The translations under genes were made by a program, and so were the position numbers. A stretch of DNA of 64,000 nt from Gemmatimonas sp. (lineage in GTDB: Bacteria; Gemmatimonadota; Gemmatimonadetes; Gemmatimonadales; Gemmatimonadaceae): NCBI RefSeq assembly GCF_021298855.1, contig NZ_JAJTHI010000001.1:1-64000 (forward strand), given 5' to 3'. The notes beneath the pieces are model-generated. The model did no database searches and had not been told where the DNA came from. It was given only the letters and a program-made list of their open reading frames with translations. Below, in pieces: positions 57,381-64,000 of this stretch (positions within the stretch are counted from its first letter, which is position 1; the number at the start of each line of letters is the position of its first letter).

Positions 57381-57704
57381 ATGGGTCGGCATGCACTGCT
57401 CGATGCAGTCATCCCTTTGGTGGCCGAACGTTTCAAGGCACTCGCGGAACCGGCCCGGTTGCAGCTGCTGCGCGCGCTCATGCAGCGGGAGCACACCGTG
57501 AACGAGCTGGTCCTGTCCACACGGCTCGGCCAGGCCAATGTGTCCAAGCACCTGCAGCTGCTGCACACGCTCGGGTTCGTGCGCCGGCGCAAGCGCGGGC
57601 TGTTCGTGCACTACGCGATAGCCGACCGCCAGGTGGCGAAGCTGTGCGCCCTGATGTGCGCCCGGGTCCGTGCCGAAACACCGCGCTCTCGGAACGGCGG
57701 GTAG
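57381..57704 (+). CDS. ArsR-type winged-helix regulator
   Basis: A 107-residue regulator. The core FKALAEPARLQLLRALMQRE, then HTVNELVLSTRLGQANVSKH and LQLLHTLGFVRRRKRGLFVH, is a typical ArsR fold. The metal-binding ELCVCDL segment is replaced by ELVLSTRL, so metal sensing at that site is unlikely. ATG 57381 has GAGG at good spacing; GTG 57360 is an alternative. A small hairpin ends just upstream. It lies 161 bp before the peptide-system operon on the same strand and could control it, but no operator was identified. Confidence 0.82.
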   Translation: MGRHALLDAVIPLVAERFKALAEPARLQLLRALMQREHTVNELVLSTRLGQANVSKHLQLLHTLGFVRRRKRGLFVHYAIADRQVAKLCALMCARVRAETPRSRNGG

Positions 57705-57865: not shown

Positions 57866-58474
57866 ATGCACACGCTTCAGGTCGGTGACGCAGGCACTCG
57901 GCGCCTGCTCCAGGCGGCTGCACTGCTGCTCCTGTTCACGGCGCTCGCGGCACCGCTCGTGGCGGCGCCCGCAACGGCCGCGGCACCCGCCGTGGCACCG
58001 GACGCCGTCGATCCGCTCCGCACGACGCGTCTCGTCCGCCGCCTCCACCTGCGCCTCGGCGGCGCTGCCGTGACGGCGCTGCCCCCCCACGAACTGCAGC
58101 ACGCACACAACGACTGCGCGGTGACCATCGTGACTCGGCTGCACCGCCAGGCCACGCACCCCGTGCCCCCCCTCCCCGCACCACACACCCTCGCTCGCCA
58201 ACTCGAGCTCGGCCCGCGCGGGGTGGCGCTCGAGCCACTCGCCCGCACCCTCCGCCAACTCGGCTGGACCGCCCGCGTGCAACGGGCGCGCACCCCGCTC
58301 CACCCCCCGGCCATCGCCCTCGTGCACCCGGGACACTTCGTACTGCTCCTGCAGCAGTCGCCGGCAACGGTGGAGTACTTCGATCCGCTCATTGGCCTGG
58401 TCCAGGAACCACAGCCGCACTTCGCAGCACGCTGGACCGGCAACGGCGTGCAGTTGTCCGCAGGGGACAACTGA
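57866..58474 (+). CDS. Exported stand-alone C39-type cysteine protease
   Basis: C39 peptidases remove leader peptides after double-glycine sites and are normally fused to cytoplasmic ends of ABC exporters. This 202-residue protein is different: it has a Sec signal (RRLLQAAALLLLFTALAAPL, about 12-40) and no ABC domain. Catalytic residues are in place: Gln78 six residues before Cys84 (QHAHNDC), His157 in HPGHFVLL and Asp173 in EYFDP, with PAIALVHPGH as in the family. ATG 57866 gives the signal peptide; an earlier ATG at 57,785 adds 27 residues. Two small Gly-run proteins follow at once and are the probable substrates. Confidence 0.75.
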   Translation: MHTLQVGDAGTRRLLQAAALLLLFTALAAPLVAAPATAAAPAVAPDAVDPLRTTRLVRRLHLRLGGAAVTALPPHELQHAHNDCAVTIVTRLHRQATHPVPPLPAPHTLARQLELGPRGVALEPLARTLRQLGWTARVQRARTPLHPPAIALVHPGHFVLLLQQSPATVEYFDPLIGLVQEPQPHFAARWTGNGVQLSAGDN

Positions 58475-58540
58475 CACTCGGCGCGCCGGCGCCTCCCGCG
58501 CGACGGCCGCCATCATCATCACCCACGCAACGGAGAATCC

Positions 58541-58852
58541 ATGTTGCTTCGACATACCACTTCCGTCCTGGCGCTCGCCGTCGCCGTCGCCCTCGGCGCA
58601 GCACCGCCCGCCAACAGCGCGGCACGCGTCCCCACCACCGTGCCGAACACGCCCGCCACCACCGAAATCGGCGGCGGCGGACCCGGCCTCACCTGCCTCG
58701 GCTGCGTCGGGGCCGGTGTCGTCGGCCTGGCCACCGCCGGCTTCGGCGGCCTGTACGTCACCCTCATGGTCGGCGGCGCCAAAGCCGTCGCCTTGGGCGG
58801 AAGCGTCGTCACCTGCGCCGCCGCCTGCGTCGCCTACTTCAACGAGGAATGA
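58541..58852 (+). CDS. Exported small protein A, bacteriocin-like precursor with C-x2-C / C-x3-C core
   Basis: A 103-residue precursor in three parts. Residues 1-27 are a Sec signal (LRHTTSVLALAVAVALGAAP, cleavage near NSA). Residues 28-43 are a Thr/Pro linker. A Gly run (44-47, after TEI) leads to a ~56-residue core with Cys52, Cys55, Cys92 and Cys96. The core is small, hydrophobic and glycine-rich (VGAGVVGLATAGFGGLYVTL), like pore-forming peptides. The Gly run is a plausible C39 cut site. GGAGA precedes the ATG. It is a paralogue of the next gene; no named family recognised. Confidence 0.75.
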   Translation: MLLRHTTSVLALAVAVALGAAPPANSAARVPTTVPNTPATTEIGGGGPGLTCLGCVGAGVVGLATAGFGGLYVTLMVGGAKAVALGGSVVTCAAACVAYFNEE

Positions 58853-58857
58853 TCACC

Positions 58858-59268
58858 ATGCGACAGACACTCATGCACCTCGCCTGGGGGCTCGCCACCG
58901 CTGCCCTCGCCATCGCCACCCCGCTGCGTGCCATCGGCTCGCCGGACACGCCGCCAATGACGGCCGCCGCCGCCACGGCCATGACCGCCACGGCCATGAC
59001 CGCCACGGCCACCCCCGCGGCCGCCCTCCCCGCCAATGCCGGCGCCGCCGTGAACACGCCGCCTGTCGCCTCACCCACCACCGGTGAGTACGGAGGCGGA
59101 TGGAGTCAGGTGTACTGCGCCGCCTGCGTCGGACTCGGTGCCTACGCCCTGTTCGCCGGCGGGTTCACCATGCTGCCGGTCATCCTCGCGAATCCGGCCG
59201 CGTACGGCACCTTCTCCGGCACCTGCGTGCTCGCCTGCCGGTCGGTGCTCGACGACCTCATGAAATGA
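58858..59268 (+). CDS. Exported small protein B, paralogue of A
   Basis: A 136-residue precursor with the same plan: Sec signal (MHLAWGLATAALAIATPLRA), a longer Ala/Thr/Pro linker with a duplicated 15-bp coding unit (58,975-59,004), a Gly run (79-81, in GEYGGGW), then a ~55-residue core. The core has Cys87, Cys90, Cys123 and Cys127 (YCAACVGLG ... GTCVLAC), matching protein A in CxxCVGxG, AGF and TCxxAC. ATG 58858 follows GAGGA at good distance; ATG 58849 overlaps the stop of A but sits too near the ribosome-binding site. Together A and B look like a two-peptide system. Confidence 0.75.
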   Translation: MRQTLMHLAWGLATAALAIATPLRAIGSPDTPPMTAAAATAMTATAMTATATPAAALPANAGAAVNTPPVASPTTGEYGGGWSQVYCAACVGLGAYALFAGGFTMLPVILANPAAYGTFSGTCVLACRSVLDDLMK

Positions 59269-59281
59269 CACGAGGGCTGAG

Positions 59282-59782
59282 GTGATCTCCCGACCCACCT
59301 CCGTCGCCGTGCTGGGAGCCGCTGCCCTCACACTGGGTACGCTCCTGGCTCGGCCAGCCCGCGGCGATGACGGCGCGCCGGCGCGCCGGCAATCCGAGGC
59401 GATCCTCGCCGCACGCGTGGCCACCGCCATCACCGCGCTGCCCCAGCCCATGGGCGCCGCCACACCAACCACTCGACTCGTCGTCGCCGCCGACTGCCCC
59501 GCCTCACACGCGGTGGTGCGCGTGCTCCTCCGCCGCGTGACCCACCATGCCACCGTGCCGCCACTCGTGATCCTCACCGATCGCTCATGGCAAACGCTCG
59601 ACTCCCTCCGCTCCGCAACCGCCAGCACGCTCCAGCAGGTCGCGCAGCTCCCCCAACGCGTCGGCGTGACCCCCGCTGCCGTCACGACCTATCCGCCCGG
59701 CAGCGCGCCCGGAGCAACCACCTCGCTCGGGGTGCATCAGGTGCTCGCGCACCTCGCCCCGCTCCCACCCGCCCGACCATGA
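59282..59782 (+). CDS. Exported thioredoxin-fold protein with a single cysteine
   Basis: A 166-residue protein with an N-terminal signal or anchor (SVAVLGAAALTLGTLLA). The rest fits a TlpA/thioredoxin-like pattern: RLVVAADCPASHAVVRVLL where CPAS stands for CxxC (Cys72 is the only cysteine), LVILTDRS, and QRVGVTPAAVTTYPPGS with Pro131 at the cis-proline position and a following glycine turn. A one-cysteine active site could act as a monothiol redoxin on the cysteine-bearing peptides encoded just upstream. The GTG start has GAGGG 5 bp upstream. Stop overlaps the next ATG (ATGA). Confidence 0.65.
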   Translation: MISRPTSVAVLGAAALTLGTLLARPARGDDGAPARRQSEAILAARVATAITALPQPMGAATPTTRLVVAADCPASHAVVRVLLRRVTHHATVPPLVILTDRSWQTLDSLRSATASTLQQVAQLPQRVGVTPAAVTTYPPGSAPGATTSLGVHQVLAHLAPLPPARP

Positions 59783-60420
59783 CCCCACCAGTCAGCCACC
59801 GCCGTTCGCGAACCACACGACCCGCCAACCGGCGGCGCGACACGGCGGCATCGAGCACGTCCGCACCGCGGCTGCTCCCCGCCTATCTCATCGCCGTCAG
59901 CATCACGGTCAGCATCGCCTTCATGATGCTCATGGCCATGCAACGCTCCGCACCGTTCGATTTCACCGGTCAGGTGGAAATGCTGCTCCCCCTCGCCAAG
60001 CTCAGCGTCTTCGCAGCGCCACTCGTCGTCGCCGCACGAGCAGCCGGCGCCGCAATCACCGTGTGGCTGGTGGCCGGCGCCCTCAATGAACCGCTGCCGC
60101 TTCGTAGCATCGCCGCCACCGTCGTGCTGTGGATTCCCCTCCTGGAGCTGTCGGCGCTGGTTGATGGCGTCGCCATTCTGCTCGATCCGCAGAGCGGATG
60201 GAACCAGGCCCACATCCCCCTCGGCCTCGATGCCCTGCTGCCGCAGCTCGAAGGCCGCACGCTCGTCGCGGCTCGCCTCGTCAACCTGCCATGGCTCGCC
60301 TTTACCGTCGTGCTCTGGCAACAGCTGCGCACACGCCACGACCGCAGCGACACCGTCGCCGTGCCCGCCGCCCTCGCCGCGTCACTGCTGCTGGTGTTGC
60401 TGCCCCTGCTGCAGCGCTGA
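59779..60420 (+). CDS. Five-segment membrane protein of the peptide locus
   Basis: A 213-residue inner-membrane protein: a basic N-terminus (SHRRSRTTRPANRRRD) and then about five hydrophobic segments, such as LLPAYLIAVSITVSIAFMML, FAAPLVVAARAAGAAITVWL and AVPAALAASLLLVLLPLLQ. The topology is like Yip1-type proteins, but no motif decides. The ATG overlaps the thioredoxin-like stop. Given its position between the redoxin and the ABC genes, a role in export or self-protection is possible; nothing in the sequence proves it. Confidence 0.6.
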   Translation: MTPPVSHRRSRTTRPANRRRDTAASSTSAPRLLPAYLIAVSITVSIAFMMLMAMQRSAPFDFTGQVEMLLPLAKLSVFAAPLVVAARAAGAAITVWLVAGALNEPLPLRSIAATVVLWIPLLELSALVDGVAILLDPQSGWNQAHIPLGLDALLPQLEGRTLVAARLVNLPWLAFTVVLWQQLRTRHDRSDTVAVPAALAASLLLVLLPLLQR

Positions 60421-60461
60421 ACGCCCCCTATCCCCTCCCCGCTCTCCACACCACAGCCACC

Positions 60462-61178
60462 ATGCTGGTTGTCGACCGCGCCGTCGCCGAATACCCGCGC
60501 TTCACCCTCGGTCCCGTCACCCTCACCCTGCAGCCCGGTGATCGGGTCGCCCTGCTGGGCCGCAATGGCACCGGCAAGAGCACCCTCTTGGCACTCATGG
60601 CCGGGCTGCGGCAGCCCGAACGCGGGACCGTGTCCGCCGTTCCCAGCGGGGATGATCATCAACTCACCCTGCGCCGTGATGTCGCGTATGTGGGCGCTGC
60701 CCTGCAGGCGCTTCCCTGGCACTCCGTCCAGGAACACTTCCGCTTCATGGCGCAGATGTACGCGGCCTGGAACACCGACCGCGCCCTGGCCCTGGCACAT
60801 GAACTCGCGCTCGATGTGGGAGCCACCACCGGCACGCTGTCGCGTGGCAACATCGTGAAGCTCAACCTCGCAACCGCGTGGGGGCGACAGGCCGACATCC
60901 TGCTGCTCGATGAGCCAACCGCTGGCCTCGATCCCATCGCGCGCACCGACCTGCTGCGCGAGCTGCGCCGAAGCATCCACGCGTGTCCCAACGCCATCGT
61001 CGTCTACGCCACCCATCTGCTCGACGAGCTGCCCGAGATCCACCCCACTCGGCTGCTCGTCCTGCGCGACGGGATGGTGCACAGCCACGAGCGTGAAGCG
61101 ATGGCGCCGTTGCATGTGACGGACCTCACGGCACTGCTTACCGAAGCGCCACGGCGCAGTACCCCGGAGGTGGCATGA
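60462..61178 (+). CDS. ABC transporter ATPase of the peptide locus (YtrB/EcsA-like)
   Basis: A 238-residue single ATPase. Walker A is LLGRNGTGKSTLLALMAG, the signature is the variant TLSRGNIVKLNLATA (LSRGN in place of LSGGQ), and Walker B is ILLLDEPTAGLDPIARTDLL. The insert MAQMYAAWNTDRALALA resembles YtrB/YhcG-type ATPases, which often occur in peptide-antibiotic export or resistance operons. ATG 60462 follows a 41-bp gap. It overlaps the permease gene by 4 bp, so the two form one transporter. Confidence 0.88.
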   Translation: MLVVDRAVAEYPRFTLGPVTLTLQPGDRVALLGRNGTGKSTLLALMAGLRQPERGTVSAVPSGDDHQLTLRRDVAYVGAALQALPWHSVQEHFRFMAQMYAAWNTDRALALAHELALDVGATTGTLSRGNIVKLNLATAWGRQADILLLDEPTAGLDPIARTDLLRELRRSIHACPNAIVVYATHLLDELPEIHPTRLLVLRDGMVHSHEREAMAPLHVTDLTALLTEAPRRSTPEVA

Positions 61179-61858
61179 CGCGTCCCGCCTGGCAGTCGCT
61201 CATGGCCATCCACTTCCGACGCGCCCGCGCCAGTCTGCTGGCGGTCACACTGGCCATGGGGCCGCTCTGCGTGCTGTTCGCGCACAAGTCGGGATATCGC
61301 GCCGAAGACATCGTCGCCAACCTCATCATGCTGTGCGCGTTCCTGCCATTCGGCGTGGGCAGCGCCGTGGCCAAGTCCAAGGCCGACGGTTCGCTCGCCT
61401 TTCTGGCCAGCCTGCCGGTCAGCGCCGCTGAACATGTGCGGGCCTGGCTGGTGCTCACGGCGCTGCTGGCCACCCCAATGGTTGTGGCGGTAACGGCCGC
61501 CACGTTGGTCTTGCCCGTGGGACTCCCCGCTGTCGCGGCACCGGCCATCGCGGTAACCACGCTCGCCTTCATCGTGAGCGTCACGCTGGCCATGCTGGCG
61601 GTGCAGCTCAGCCAGCCCCCCGCCGGCGCCGGTGCCTACCTGATTGCCACCATGAGCACGGTGCTGCTGGTGCTCTTCGCCGTGGGCAAGGTGGCCGAGT
61701 GGTCGCCTACGCTGTTCTCGGCGGTGGTGCGGAGCCCGTTCTTCGTTCCGGGACTCTCGGTCATCCTCTGGGGGGTGGTGGGCGTCGTTTTCTGGCGCTC
61801 CTGCCGTCGCATTGGACACTACATGACCAGCTACGTGGGTGATCCACCCCAGGCATGA
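61175..61858 (+). CDS. ABC-2-like permease of the peptide locus
   Basis: A 227-residue membrane protein with about six hydrophobic segments, for example LIMLCAFLPFGVGSAVA, LVLTALLATPMVVAVTAATL and FFVPGLSVILWGVVGVVFW. The N-terminal amphipathic stretch AIHFRRARASLLAV is typical of type-2 ABC permeases. Its ATG overlaps the ATPase stop and its stop overlaps the next start, so the whole block is translationally coupled. Substrate most likely one of the small proteins or a product of their action; this is inference. Confidence 0.8.
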   Translation: MTRPAWQSLMAIHFRRARASLLAVTLAMGPLCVLFAHKSGYRAEDIVANLIMLCAFLPFGVGSAVAKSKADGSLAFLASLPVSAAEHVRAWLVLTALLATPMVVAVTAATLVLPVGLPAVAAPAIAVTTLAFIVSVTLAMLAVQLSQPPAGAGAYLIATMSTVLLVLFAVGKVAEWSPTLFSAVVRSPFFVPGLSVILWGVVGVVFWRSCRRIGHYMTSYVGDPPQA

Positions 61859-63057
61859 CGCACACACGCACGGAGACACCGCTGGGCACGTGGCGCATCT
61901 GCTGGCAGCTGGGGGTGTCCGCGCTGGCCACATCCACCACCGGCACCGCCACGAGCCTTGCCCTGGTGGTCGCCAGTGTGGCGTGCGTGGTGGGCGCCGA
62001 TCGGGCATTCCAGTCGCTTGGCCAGCTGGTGCAGCAGCTCGCTGATGGTGGCAATTCCCCCACGGCCCAGCTCGAGGTGTCGGCCTGTCCGAAATGCCAG
62101 GCCGCGCTCTCGTCGTGGGCCACGCTGCACCCCCTGCTCGAGCGATCTGCCGTGACTACGGTGGTCGTGCGTGGCGTCGGCGGCATTTCCATTCCGCACC
62201 GCACCGTCCCCGTGCGCTGTGTTCCTCCAGGTCAGACACCCGCGGCGGTCAGCTGGTGGAGCAGCGGGGCGCGCCTGGCGTGGCACGAGCAGCCACCCCT
62301 CGGCAGGAGCCACGGGGTGGTACTCGCCGGTGTCGAGCTGGCGCCAGGCCGTCGCGGCGCCGAGCGCGCGATCACGATTGAAACGACTGCGGGTGCCTGG
62401 GCTGTGGTCGGAACGCTGCCCGCACGGCCGCTTCTGTCGCAGCACCGCGAGGAGAACGGTGCGCTGCTCGTGCCGTGGCGGGCGCCCTTCGATCGCCTGT
62501 GCCAAGGTGGCACGCCGCAGTGGCGTGTCGTGGCGCGCGATACCCTGGCGCTCACGCGCGCGCTGACCGAAGTGGACGCCGAGTTGCGCCGTGCGCTGCA
62601 GTGGCGCCCCACCGACGTGCCACCATGGCGCGTTCGCCGCCTCGATCGCTTCGGCACGCTGGTGCGTGGACTCGTTGATCGATTTTCGCGATGGCTCATG
62701 GTGGTACCACTGCTGGTCATGGGACTGGCGGGAGCCGGCATCTTCAGTGTGCAGGCGCTCGAAAGTGCTGCCCGCATGGACGAGTTCGGCGTCCGCCGAG
62801 CCGTGGGCGCCAGTCGCACCACGCTGATGGGCCAGCTTGCCATGGAAGCGATGATTGTGAGTGTCGTGGGGGTGGCGTTGGCGACGGCGGGCCTGTGGTT
62901 GGCCGGCCTGCTCGAGGCGGGCGCGGTCGCGCTGTGGCGGGCGGCTGCACACGGCGCGGGCATCGCGATGCTCATGACCACGCTCGGGATGTTTCTGCCC
63001 GGGGTGAGCGCGCTGCGCGCGGCGTCCATTGCGGCGCTGGAAGGCGGGCACCACTGA
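61855..63057 (+). CDS. FtsX/MacB-like permease 1
   Basis: A 400-residue protein with one N-terminal transmembrane helix (ATSLALVVASVACVVGADRA), a ~230-residue extracytoplasmic domain, and a C-terminal FtsX domain of three helices. Conserved FtsX text is ALESAARMDEFGVRRAVGASRTTL. The extracytoplasmic domain begins with a CxxC (Cys78-Pro-Lys-Cys81), unusual in this family and next to a redoxin gene. It overlaps the preceding permease by 4 bp. No own ATPase is adjacent except the one at 60,462. Confidence 0.82.
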   Translation: MTHTRTETPLGTWRICWQLGVSALATSTTGTATSLALVVASVACVVGADRAFQSLGQLVQQLADGGNSPTAQLEVSACPKCQAALSSWATLHPLLERSAVTTVVVRGVGGISIPHRTVPVRCVPPGQTPAAVSWWSSGARLAWHEQPPLGRSHGVVLAGVELAPGRRGAERAITIETTAGAWAVVGTLPARPLLSQHREENGALLVPWRAPFDRLCQGGTPQWRVVARDTLALTRALTEVDAELRRALQWRPTDVPPWRVRRLDRFGTLVRGLVDRFSRWLMVVPLLVMGLAGAGIFSVQALESAARMDEFGVRRAVGASRTTLMGQLAMEAMIVSVVGVALATAGLWLAGLLEAGAVALWRAAAHGAGIAMLMTTLGMFLPGVSALRAASIAALEGGHH

Positions 63058-64000
63058 ATGCGCATGGGGCGCGCGACTGAGCCGCTGCTGCAGCTGTGGC
63101 AGGCCACCGATCTCCTGCGCGCCACCCGTCGTCAACCCTGGCTCGTGGCCGTGGCCCTGCTCTCGCTGGCGGCCACCACGGCCATCAGCGCGCTGGTGCA
63201 TGCAGGCGTGACGGGGGTGTCGGCTGCCTTGCGTCGCGATTTGGCGCAGGACGGTGGTGATGTCCTGCAGCTGCAGCCCGCAACCGCGGCCGTCCCCTGC
63301 CCGCTCTCCGCGCACCGCTGTACCGAGCGCGGCGCCGCAACGGTGCGGCGTGGCGTGGGCACACTGCACACCCTGGCCGCCACGCTTCCGGCGTCGTCGC
63401 ACGCGTTGGTCCGCGAGGGGTCGGCGCTGCTGCACCGGCCGCCCCGCCGCCAGCGCGTCGGCCTGCTGGGAACCGGCCGGGCACTCTTCGGGCTGCAATC
63501 CAGTCGCGTGGTGAGTGGTCGGGTGTGGTCGGCACACGAGGAGCGCAGCGCCCGTCGCATCGGGGTCATCGGGCGCACACTGGTCGACTCCCTGTTCGGC
63601 GGCCAGGTCCCCGCCCGCGTGCGTCTGGGCTCCGTCACCATCGCCATCATCGGTGTCGTGCAGTCGGGACCCGTGGCACCGATCGATCTCGACCACGTCT
63701 TCATCGTGCCACCGCCGGTGTTCCGCGATCTGACGAACCCCGCGACAGGCGCCTACAGTCTGCTGGCACGGGGCCACGACCACGGCGAGGCGGTTTCGGC
63801 ACGCGTCGGGCTGCTGCGCCTCCGCCGCCAGTCGCCTCGCCGCTTCACCAGCGTGACCGCGTCCACGGCACAGGAGCGGCTGGGCGACGTCGCGAAGCTC
63901 GAGGACGCGCTGCGCTCCGGCGCGCGTGCGCTGTCGTTCGTCCTCGCCTTGGCGTCGGTGGTGGCCGTGGCCGCGCTCAGCGCCTCCATCGCGCGCGCGC
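63058..64000 (+). CDS. FtsX/MacB-like permease 2 (cut by window end)
   Basis: The reading frame starts at ATG 63058, directly after the previous stop, and runs to the window end (at least 314 residues). It has an N-terminal helix (WLVAVALLSLAATTAISALV), a MacB-like periplasmic core with GVIGRTLVDSLFGG and IAIIGVVQSGPVAPIDLDHV, and the first returning helix ALSFVLALASVVAVAALSA. The last section should be an FtsX domain beyond 64,000. Like permease 1 it has a cysteine pair soon after the first helix (Cys81, Cys88). Confidence 0.8.
   Translation, partial: MRMGRATEPLLQLWQATDLLRATRRQPWLVAVALLSLAATTAISALVHAGVTGVSAALRRDLAQDGGDVLQLQPATAAVPCPLSAHRCTERGAATVRRGVGTLHTLAATLPASSHALVREGSALLHRPPRRQRVGLLGTGRALFGLQSSRVVSGRVWSAHEERSARRIGVIGRTLVDSLFGGQVPARVRLGSVTIAIIGVVQSGPVAPIDLDHVFIVPPPVFRDLTNPATGAYSLLARGHDHGEAVSARVGLLRLRRQSPRRFTSVTASTAQERLGDVAKLEDALRSGARALSFVLALASVVAVAALSASIARA

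Follow-up and report, generated by a model that had tools for sequence, protein, structure and literature searches.

The window analysed here, the first 64,000 nucleotides of contig NZ_JAJTHI010000001.1 of a Gemmatimonas sp. (forward strand, 1-64,000; the contig runs to 65216), ends in a run of nine genes, seven of which form a conserved cassette. This cassette probably encodes a secreted-peptide system that is matured after export, with antagonism by two peptides, A and B, as its most likely purpose. Its genes encode, in order, an exported peptidase C39, peptide A, peptide B, a thioredoxin-like protein (R), a Yip1-like membrane protein (M), an ABC ATPase and an ABC-2 permease, and they occur at 22 loci in 11 genera and four families of Gemmatimonadota with constant gene order. 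The predicted maturation route, by Sec export, extracytoplasmic C39 cleavage and disulfide closure, is very likely. It is well supported because of the signal-like starts, the C39-type -4/-2 motif, the paired-cysteine core and the constant company of the C39. An antagonistic, toxic role for the peptides has about an even chance of being right.

Conservation of the cassette

Within the genus the cassette is present in three of 30 genomes, the window's own counted. G015 is about 90% identical to the window across the whole operon. G003 keeps the order helix-turn-helix (HTH) regulator-C39-A-B-R-M-ABC-permease at about 37-72% protein identity, with FtsX1 reduced to a remnant and FtsX2 missing. A genome-wide scan with the window's own C39 has a sole match, UBA2094 (Gemmatimonas sp.), because the window lineage is divergent, and the profile of the window-lineage peptides is too narrow for the wider family. 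A match of this profile in G075 (E 0.005) lies inside an unrelated open reading frame of 617 amino acids, and weak A6 profile matches in G254 and G018 coincide with unrelated genes; all were rejected.

The wider family was reached by a phylum search with the Pfam C39 model, followed by reading the neighbourhoods of free-standing copies (190-290 amino acids). Many of these genes precede those for small exported peptides with a C-x2-C...C-x3-C core, with redoxin, membrane protein, ABC ATPase and ABC-2 permease genes following in that order. Free-standing C39-like genes without peptides, and spurious C39 matches, were excluded (L056, L057, L059, L060, L061, L078, L080-L082 and L089-L092). Homology to the window proteins was confirmed by iterated profiles seeded with the window's own proteins, which link the C39 in 22 of 22 loci and M, the ABC ATPase and the permease each in all 21 loci where the contig reaches far enough; these profiles do not link R.

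The locus is beyond chance, since 22 loci have the set in one constant order and such peptides are found in none of ten control neighbourhoods of exporter-fused C39. A profile of A-type peptides gives 20 loci at E<1e-4 over 395 genomes, every one beside an exported C39. Nineteen of these adjoin a C39 known from the earlier search; the Pfam C39 scan overlooked the last one, G187, which on reading has the C39, an A peptide, a B peptide and a C-x-x-C redoxin. The original prediction looked to relatives for a recurring gene order, and the set is indeed co-conserved. It would have been undermined by A and B living as housekeeping envelope proteins apart from the protease, and the A-type profile found no peptides without the protease in the 395 genomes. 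The distance matrices of C39, M, ABC ATPase and permease correlate at r 0.73-0.94, with none of 2000 permutations as good, a correlation to which shared ancestry contributes.

The protease and its candidate substrates

The window C39 retains the catalytic residues Q78, C84, H157 and D173. Among the relatives that cover these positions, Q and C are kept in 20 of 20 and H and D in 22 of 22. The protein begins with R/K followed by a hydrophobic stretch, and cassette C39s in general are free-standing genes of 190-290 amino acids with a basic-then-hydrophobic N-terminus, not fused N-terminally to an ABC exporter. In a tree they are set apart from exporter-fused and other free-standing C39s, with local support of 0.96. 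The start of a further exported C39 (LQSTLYDCGPAALAT), interrupted by the contig end, lies at L058:7905-8036 (G010, same genus). A cytoplasmic C39, stated originally for the known double-glycine systems, does hold for the exporters, but a periplasmic one has been published: FapD, from the functional amyloid (Fap) system of Pseudomonas, is Sec-exported, catalytically required and needed for fibre secretion, and its substrate is reported as unclear (PMC5557850). It is the sole published periplasmic C39 found in the literature.

The peptide set comprises 57 precursors from 21 loci, usually two and at most six per locus, with A-type ahead of B-type in most. The window A and B are paralogous and the four cysteines are invariant. 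All precursors share a plan of a signal-peptide-like start, a poorly conserved spacer, a motif and the C-x2-C...C-x3-C core. The hydrophobic N-terminal stretch is present in 57/57 and a basic residue precedes it in 56/57. A rule for signal-like N-termini accepts 56/57 peptides and 0/22 ABC ATPases, although this outcome is favoured by the choice of starts, which gave preference to signal peptides. The first peptide of L068 (G135) has its A-type core in a reading frame that lacks a proper start, which points to a likely frameshift, either genuine or an assembly error. The original claims of an exported C39 and of two paralogous, exported cysteine proteins are upheld, and the signal-like N-termini and a motif just before the core agree with its proposal that the leader would be removed after translocation.

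This motif, [VI]-x-G-x-[GQ], ends the spacer in 47/57 precursors, compared with a mean of 3.3 and a maximum of 12 in 1000 shuffles of the spacers, and neither the A-type nor the B-type alignment shows any variation at its middle Gly. C39 substrates usually carry Val, Leu or Ile at -4 and two Gly residues at -2 and -1 (PMC6363468), and the motif has the -4 V/I and the -2 G; on this ground the predicted cut is placed after V-x-G-x. In window A the motif reads I-G-G-G, window B fits at the Gly part only, and B of G003 has T-G-Q-G.

Selection differs between the predicted mature parts and the rest, as seen in one relative. Between G000 and G015, A has no non-synonymous changes in the 61 codons from IGGG on and six in the 42 codons of the leader part, while B has two in the 56 codons of the mature part and 34 in the 80 codons of leader plus spacer. 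In 16 of 19 orthologue pairs, conservation is higher in the mature part than in the leader. An AlphaFold model of A has a signal helix (4-19), a coil (20-47) and two further helices (48-77 and 82-102), at a predicted local distance difference test (pLDDT) score of 56-77 by block; cysteines lie where the first core helix begins and where the second ends. This model is suggestive only, and would fit a helical hairpin closed by disulfides.

The 57-member peptide family has no credible match in Pfam, NCBIfam, PHROGs or PDB sequences. The profile search against bacteriocin families proposed originally was fruitless, as the window peptides have no NCBIfam match at E 1; the best among relatives is TIGR03949 with one B-type peptide at E 0.42, which is chance level.

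Redoxin, membrane protein and transporter

R has a single cysteine and was originally described as a thioredoxin-fold protein. In all 18 non-Gemmatimonas loci with sequence, the R position encodes a C-x-x-C redoxin whose N-terminal part includes a hydrophobic segment, and these redoxins give weak Redoxin and Thioredoxin_2 matches. The corresponding motif is CPAS in the window and G015, and CQSC in G003. R itself has no Pfam match, its profile comparison with the redoxins is non-significant, though in correct register, and its AlphaFold model (pLDDT 40) was not used. The single cysteine stands as described, and the fold is plausible from place and register. The ratio of non-synonymous to synonymous substitution rates (dN/dS) is 0.44 for R, compared with about 0.2 for C39, M, ABC ATPase and permease.

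M has a weak PF04893 (Yip1) match in 4/16 members, with a best E of 6e-6, under the cut-off, and no match in a plasmid search. The ABC ATPase and ABC-2 permease weakly resemble PmtAB, a handler of membrane-active peptides; the match to PmtB has E 0.013, which falls far short of that family's cut-off. Searches of Pfam, NCBIfam, PHROGs and PADLOC place none of A, B, R and M credibly in a family, and PADLOC run on the locus gives no match.

Proposed mechanism and alternatives

In the proposed mechanism, two (up to six) pre-pro-peptides would be exported across the inner membrane via the general secretion pathway, with removal of the signal peptide. Next, a periplasm-facing C39 anchored in the membrane would cut the spacer off after V-x-G-x, immediately before the cysteine core, and the membrane-anchored thioredoxin-like protein would form the disulfides between the C-x2-C and C-x3-C pairs, bridging a hydrophobic hairpin of two helices. 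Taking the finished peptides out of the producer's membrane, for release, self-protection or both, may be the task of the ABC ATPase, ABC-2 permease and Yip1-like M. The purpose would most likely be antagonism by the A+B pair, in the manner of two-peptide bacteriocins.

Several observations weigh against this mechanism. The motif does not have the -7 and -12 leucines of classic C39 leaders, and recognition by the C39 must therefore differ in part. The strict motif is lacking in 10/57 peptides, and window A and B match it solely in relaxed form. In 3/19 orthologue pairs the leader is better conserved than the mature part, and the second cysteine of the redoxin is lost in the window lineage. The cassette has no demonstrable immunity gene, and neither the cassette nor its conserved neighbours encode an outer-membrane exit. 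The bacteriocin-like function of the original prediction is kept here as a conjecture; most of the mature peptides have a neutral to slightly acidic character and are not cationic.

It is possible, though unlikely, that peptides made by the same route are signals for quorum or kin recognition, sensed via the membrane proteins, and not toxins. Strong purifying selection on the mature parts and their neutral charge would suit such a role, and C39-cut peptides serve signalling in Gram-positives too (PMC6363468), but the conserved neighbours of the cassette include no histidine kinase or receptor, and up to six different peptides per locus would be unusual for a signal. Somewhat less probable again, by analogy with the Fap amyloid, is that they are building blocks of the envelope or surface. 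FapD, as the one published periplasmic C39, lends itself to this comparison; however, no FapF-like barrel or repeat-rich fibre subunits are seen among the conserved neighbours, and a housekeeping part of the envelope would not be expected to be so patchily distributed (20/395 genomes; 3/30 in the genus). An envelope module for redox or metal handling, with the C39 merely a maturation factor, is improbable. The peptide cores are hydrophobic helices without conserved His or acidic metal ligands; the redoxin is found in every complete locus, as such a module would have it, but the ArsR gene upstream in Gemmatimonas is limited to three loci and the peroxiredoxin-like gene that precedes the cassette in nine family f5 loci is tied to the neighbourhood of that one family. 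Chance neighbours of separate function, brought together in one lineage, would describe FtsX1, FtsX2 and ArsR, but for the seven-gene core this explanation has a negligible probability, being contradicted by an order held at 22 loci although protein identities to the window fall to about 15-30%.

Gene layout and additions in Gemmatimonas

The nine consecutive genes at 57866-64000 are all on one strand, as first described, and the ninth has its stop at 64293, beyond the window (Table 1). The many 4-base overlaps reported originally are present at R/M, ABC/permease and permease/FtsX1. An A/B overlap would need the upstream ATG at 58849, which is absent in the nearest relative, G015; B therefore probably starts at 58858.

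Table 1. Features of the peptide locus in window coordinates
Feature	Position	Strand	Basis and remarks
ArsR/SmtB-type HTH regulator	57381..57704	+	NF033788 over cut-off; orthologues only in L004, L017, L018
Exported/membrane-anchored peptidase C39	57866..58474	+	PF03412 E 6.7e-6, over curated cut-off
Peptide A precursor (103 aa)	58541..58852	+	Signal-peptide-like start, spacer, EIGGG motif, C-x2-C...C-x3-C core
Predicted mature A (from residue 47)	58679..58849	+	Putative cut after I-G-G-G, from register of the -4/-2 motif
Peptide B precursor (136 aa)	58858..59268	+	A paralogue; start 58858 kept in G015 and G003
Predicted mature B (GWSQVYCAAC...)	59098..59265	+	Putative cut site
R, thioredoxin-like position	59282..59782	+	Single Cys (CPAS); synteny
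M, polytopic membrane protein	59779..60420	+	Yip1-like in relatives
ABC ATPase	60462..61178	+	PF00005 E 3.7e-24
ABC-2 type permease	61175..61858	+	Weak ABC2_membrane match; PF13346 over cut-off in a relative
FtsX-like permease 1	61855..63057	+	PF02687 E 1.2e-10; lineage-specific addition, decayed in G003
FtsX/MacB-like permease 2	63058..64293 (window part 63058..64000)	+	MacB_PCD E 4.5e-9; lineage-specific; only G000, G015

Neither the FtsX pair nor the ArsR regulator belongs to the conserved system; these are additions seen only in Gemmatimonas. The ArsR and FtsX genes adjoin the cassette only in the three Gemmatimonas loci, and the FtsX genes are decayed in one of the three; the pair is dispensable, since G003 has lost it while keeping the remaining operon. 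The original inclusion of both permeases in the system is therefore dropped. They have 400 and 411 amino acids and no ATPase, and resemble a split, orphan ADOP/MacB-type pair (weak TIGR03434 match). The MacA/TolC-like partners expected past 64,000 did not appear: there is no MacA, TolC or second ATPase downstream of FtsX2 up to the contig end at 65216.

The peroxiredoxin-like gene of family f5 (L066, L067, L068, L071 and L083-L087) lies about 1.1 kb ahead of the C39 domain end, and may belong to the neighbourhood or to the system.

Other exported C39 loci in Gemmatimonadota

A scan of the fetched loci for C39-like leaders has four matches, three of them near a free-standing exported C39 and in proteins with signal-like N-termini: L088 (LSAAQMGEVSGG), L077 (LSVAQMSDVQGDG) and L069 (LSETEMADIEGG). 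The leaders in these three are near-canonical for C39 (LSxx[EQ]Mxx[VI]xG), and the loci would give independent support for exported C39s that cut exported precursors in this phylum.

In L088 (G255:C2) and L077 (G279:C77), the residues past the motif resemble amphipathic helices. A TolC-like OEP is among the next genes in both, with HlyD and a MacB-type ABC ATPase in L077. These two represent a second architecture that would cut outside by the same logic as the cassette, with a plausible exit via TolC. L069 (G165:C19) and L079 (G392:C38) have an exported C39 with an ABC ATPase; L069 also has a 487-amino acid protein and, upstream, a precursor with LSETEMADIEGG directly followed by YCFGC, behind a hydrophobic N-terminus. 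These may constitute a third architecture.

Tentatively, and with slightly less than an even chance, these loci could reflect a general mode of peptide secretion in Gemmatimonadota, Sec first and C39 outside, in at least three architectures: the present cassette, which would be a new multi-component class of disulfide-closed hairpin toxins; a C39 with TolC/HlyD/MacB and amphipathic-helix precursors; and a C39 with LSETEMADIEGG precursors.

Relation to known systems

The cassette shares with the double-glycine systems (peptidase-containing ABC transporter, PCAT, or ABC-transporter maturation and secretion, AMS) and class II bacteriocins the C39 fold, the catalytic residues, the motif of a -4 hydrophobic residue and -2 Gly, and small paired secreted peptides. 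It differs in that the C39 is unfused to an exporter and outside the cytoplasm, the precursors have Sec-like signals without the -7/-12 leucines, and the transporter is of the small ATPase plus ABC-2 permease type. Like FapD, the cassette C39 is exported (PMC5557850); unlike Fap, the cassette has no fibre subunits or FapF pore, and its likely substrates are adjacent and motif-marked whereas that of FapD is reported as unclear.

Adjacent, paired but different hydrophobic helical peptides are also seen in class IIb two-peptide bacteriocins (lactobin A/cerein 7B type); the cassette peptides, in contrast, are predicted to be Sec-exported, have four conserved cysteines, are not cationic and match no family. 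Plant alpha-hairpinins consist of two helices closed by paired Cys motifs, with C-x3-C on both arms. The cassette peptides have C-x2-C/C-x3-C and hydrophobic helices, and no homology is claimed. Halocin C8 and SdpC, considered as analogues, gave no profile match and are not claimed either. The small ATPase plus ABC-2 permease resembles PmtAB/LanFEG-type transporters for membrane-active peptides, from which the cassette differs by the extra Yip1-like protein. The window FtsX permeases are unlike a MacAB-TolC tripartite exporter, having no MacA, MacB ATPase or TolC within the contig; genes of that kind stand at L077 instead.

No description of such a system was found in the full-text literature, subscription journals being mostly outside reach. 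A periplasmic C39 is itself already known (FapD, PMC5557850), and what is new is a variant of C39-dependent maturation together with its peptide family. The order of events in double-glycine peptide secretion would be inverted here, with export first and trimming outside. Periplasmic C39 proteases have hardly been studied, and the cassette offers motif-marked candidate substrates for them. Mining rules that seek exporter-fused C39 and signal-free leaders would tend to miss it, and its 57 precursors make up a new peptide family from a phylum with little known peptide chemistry.

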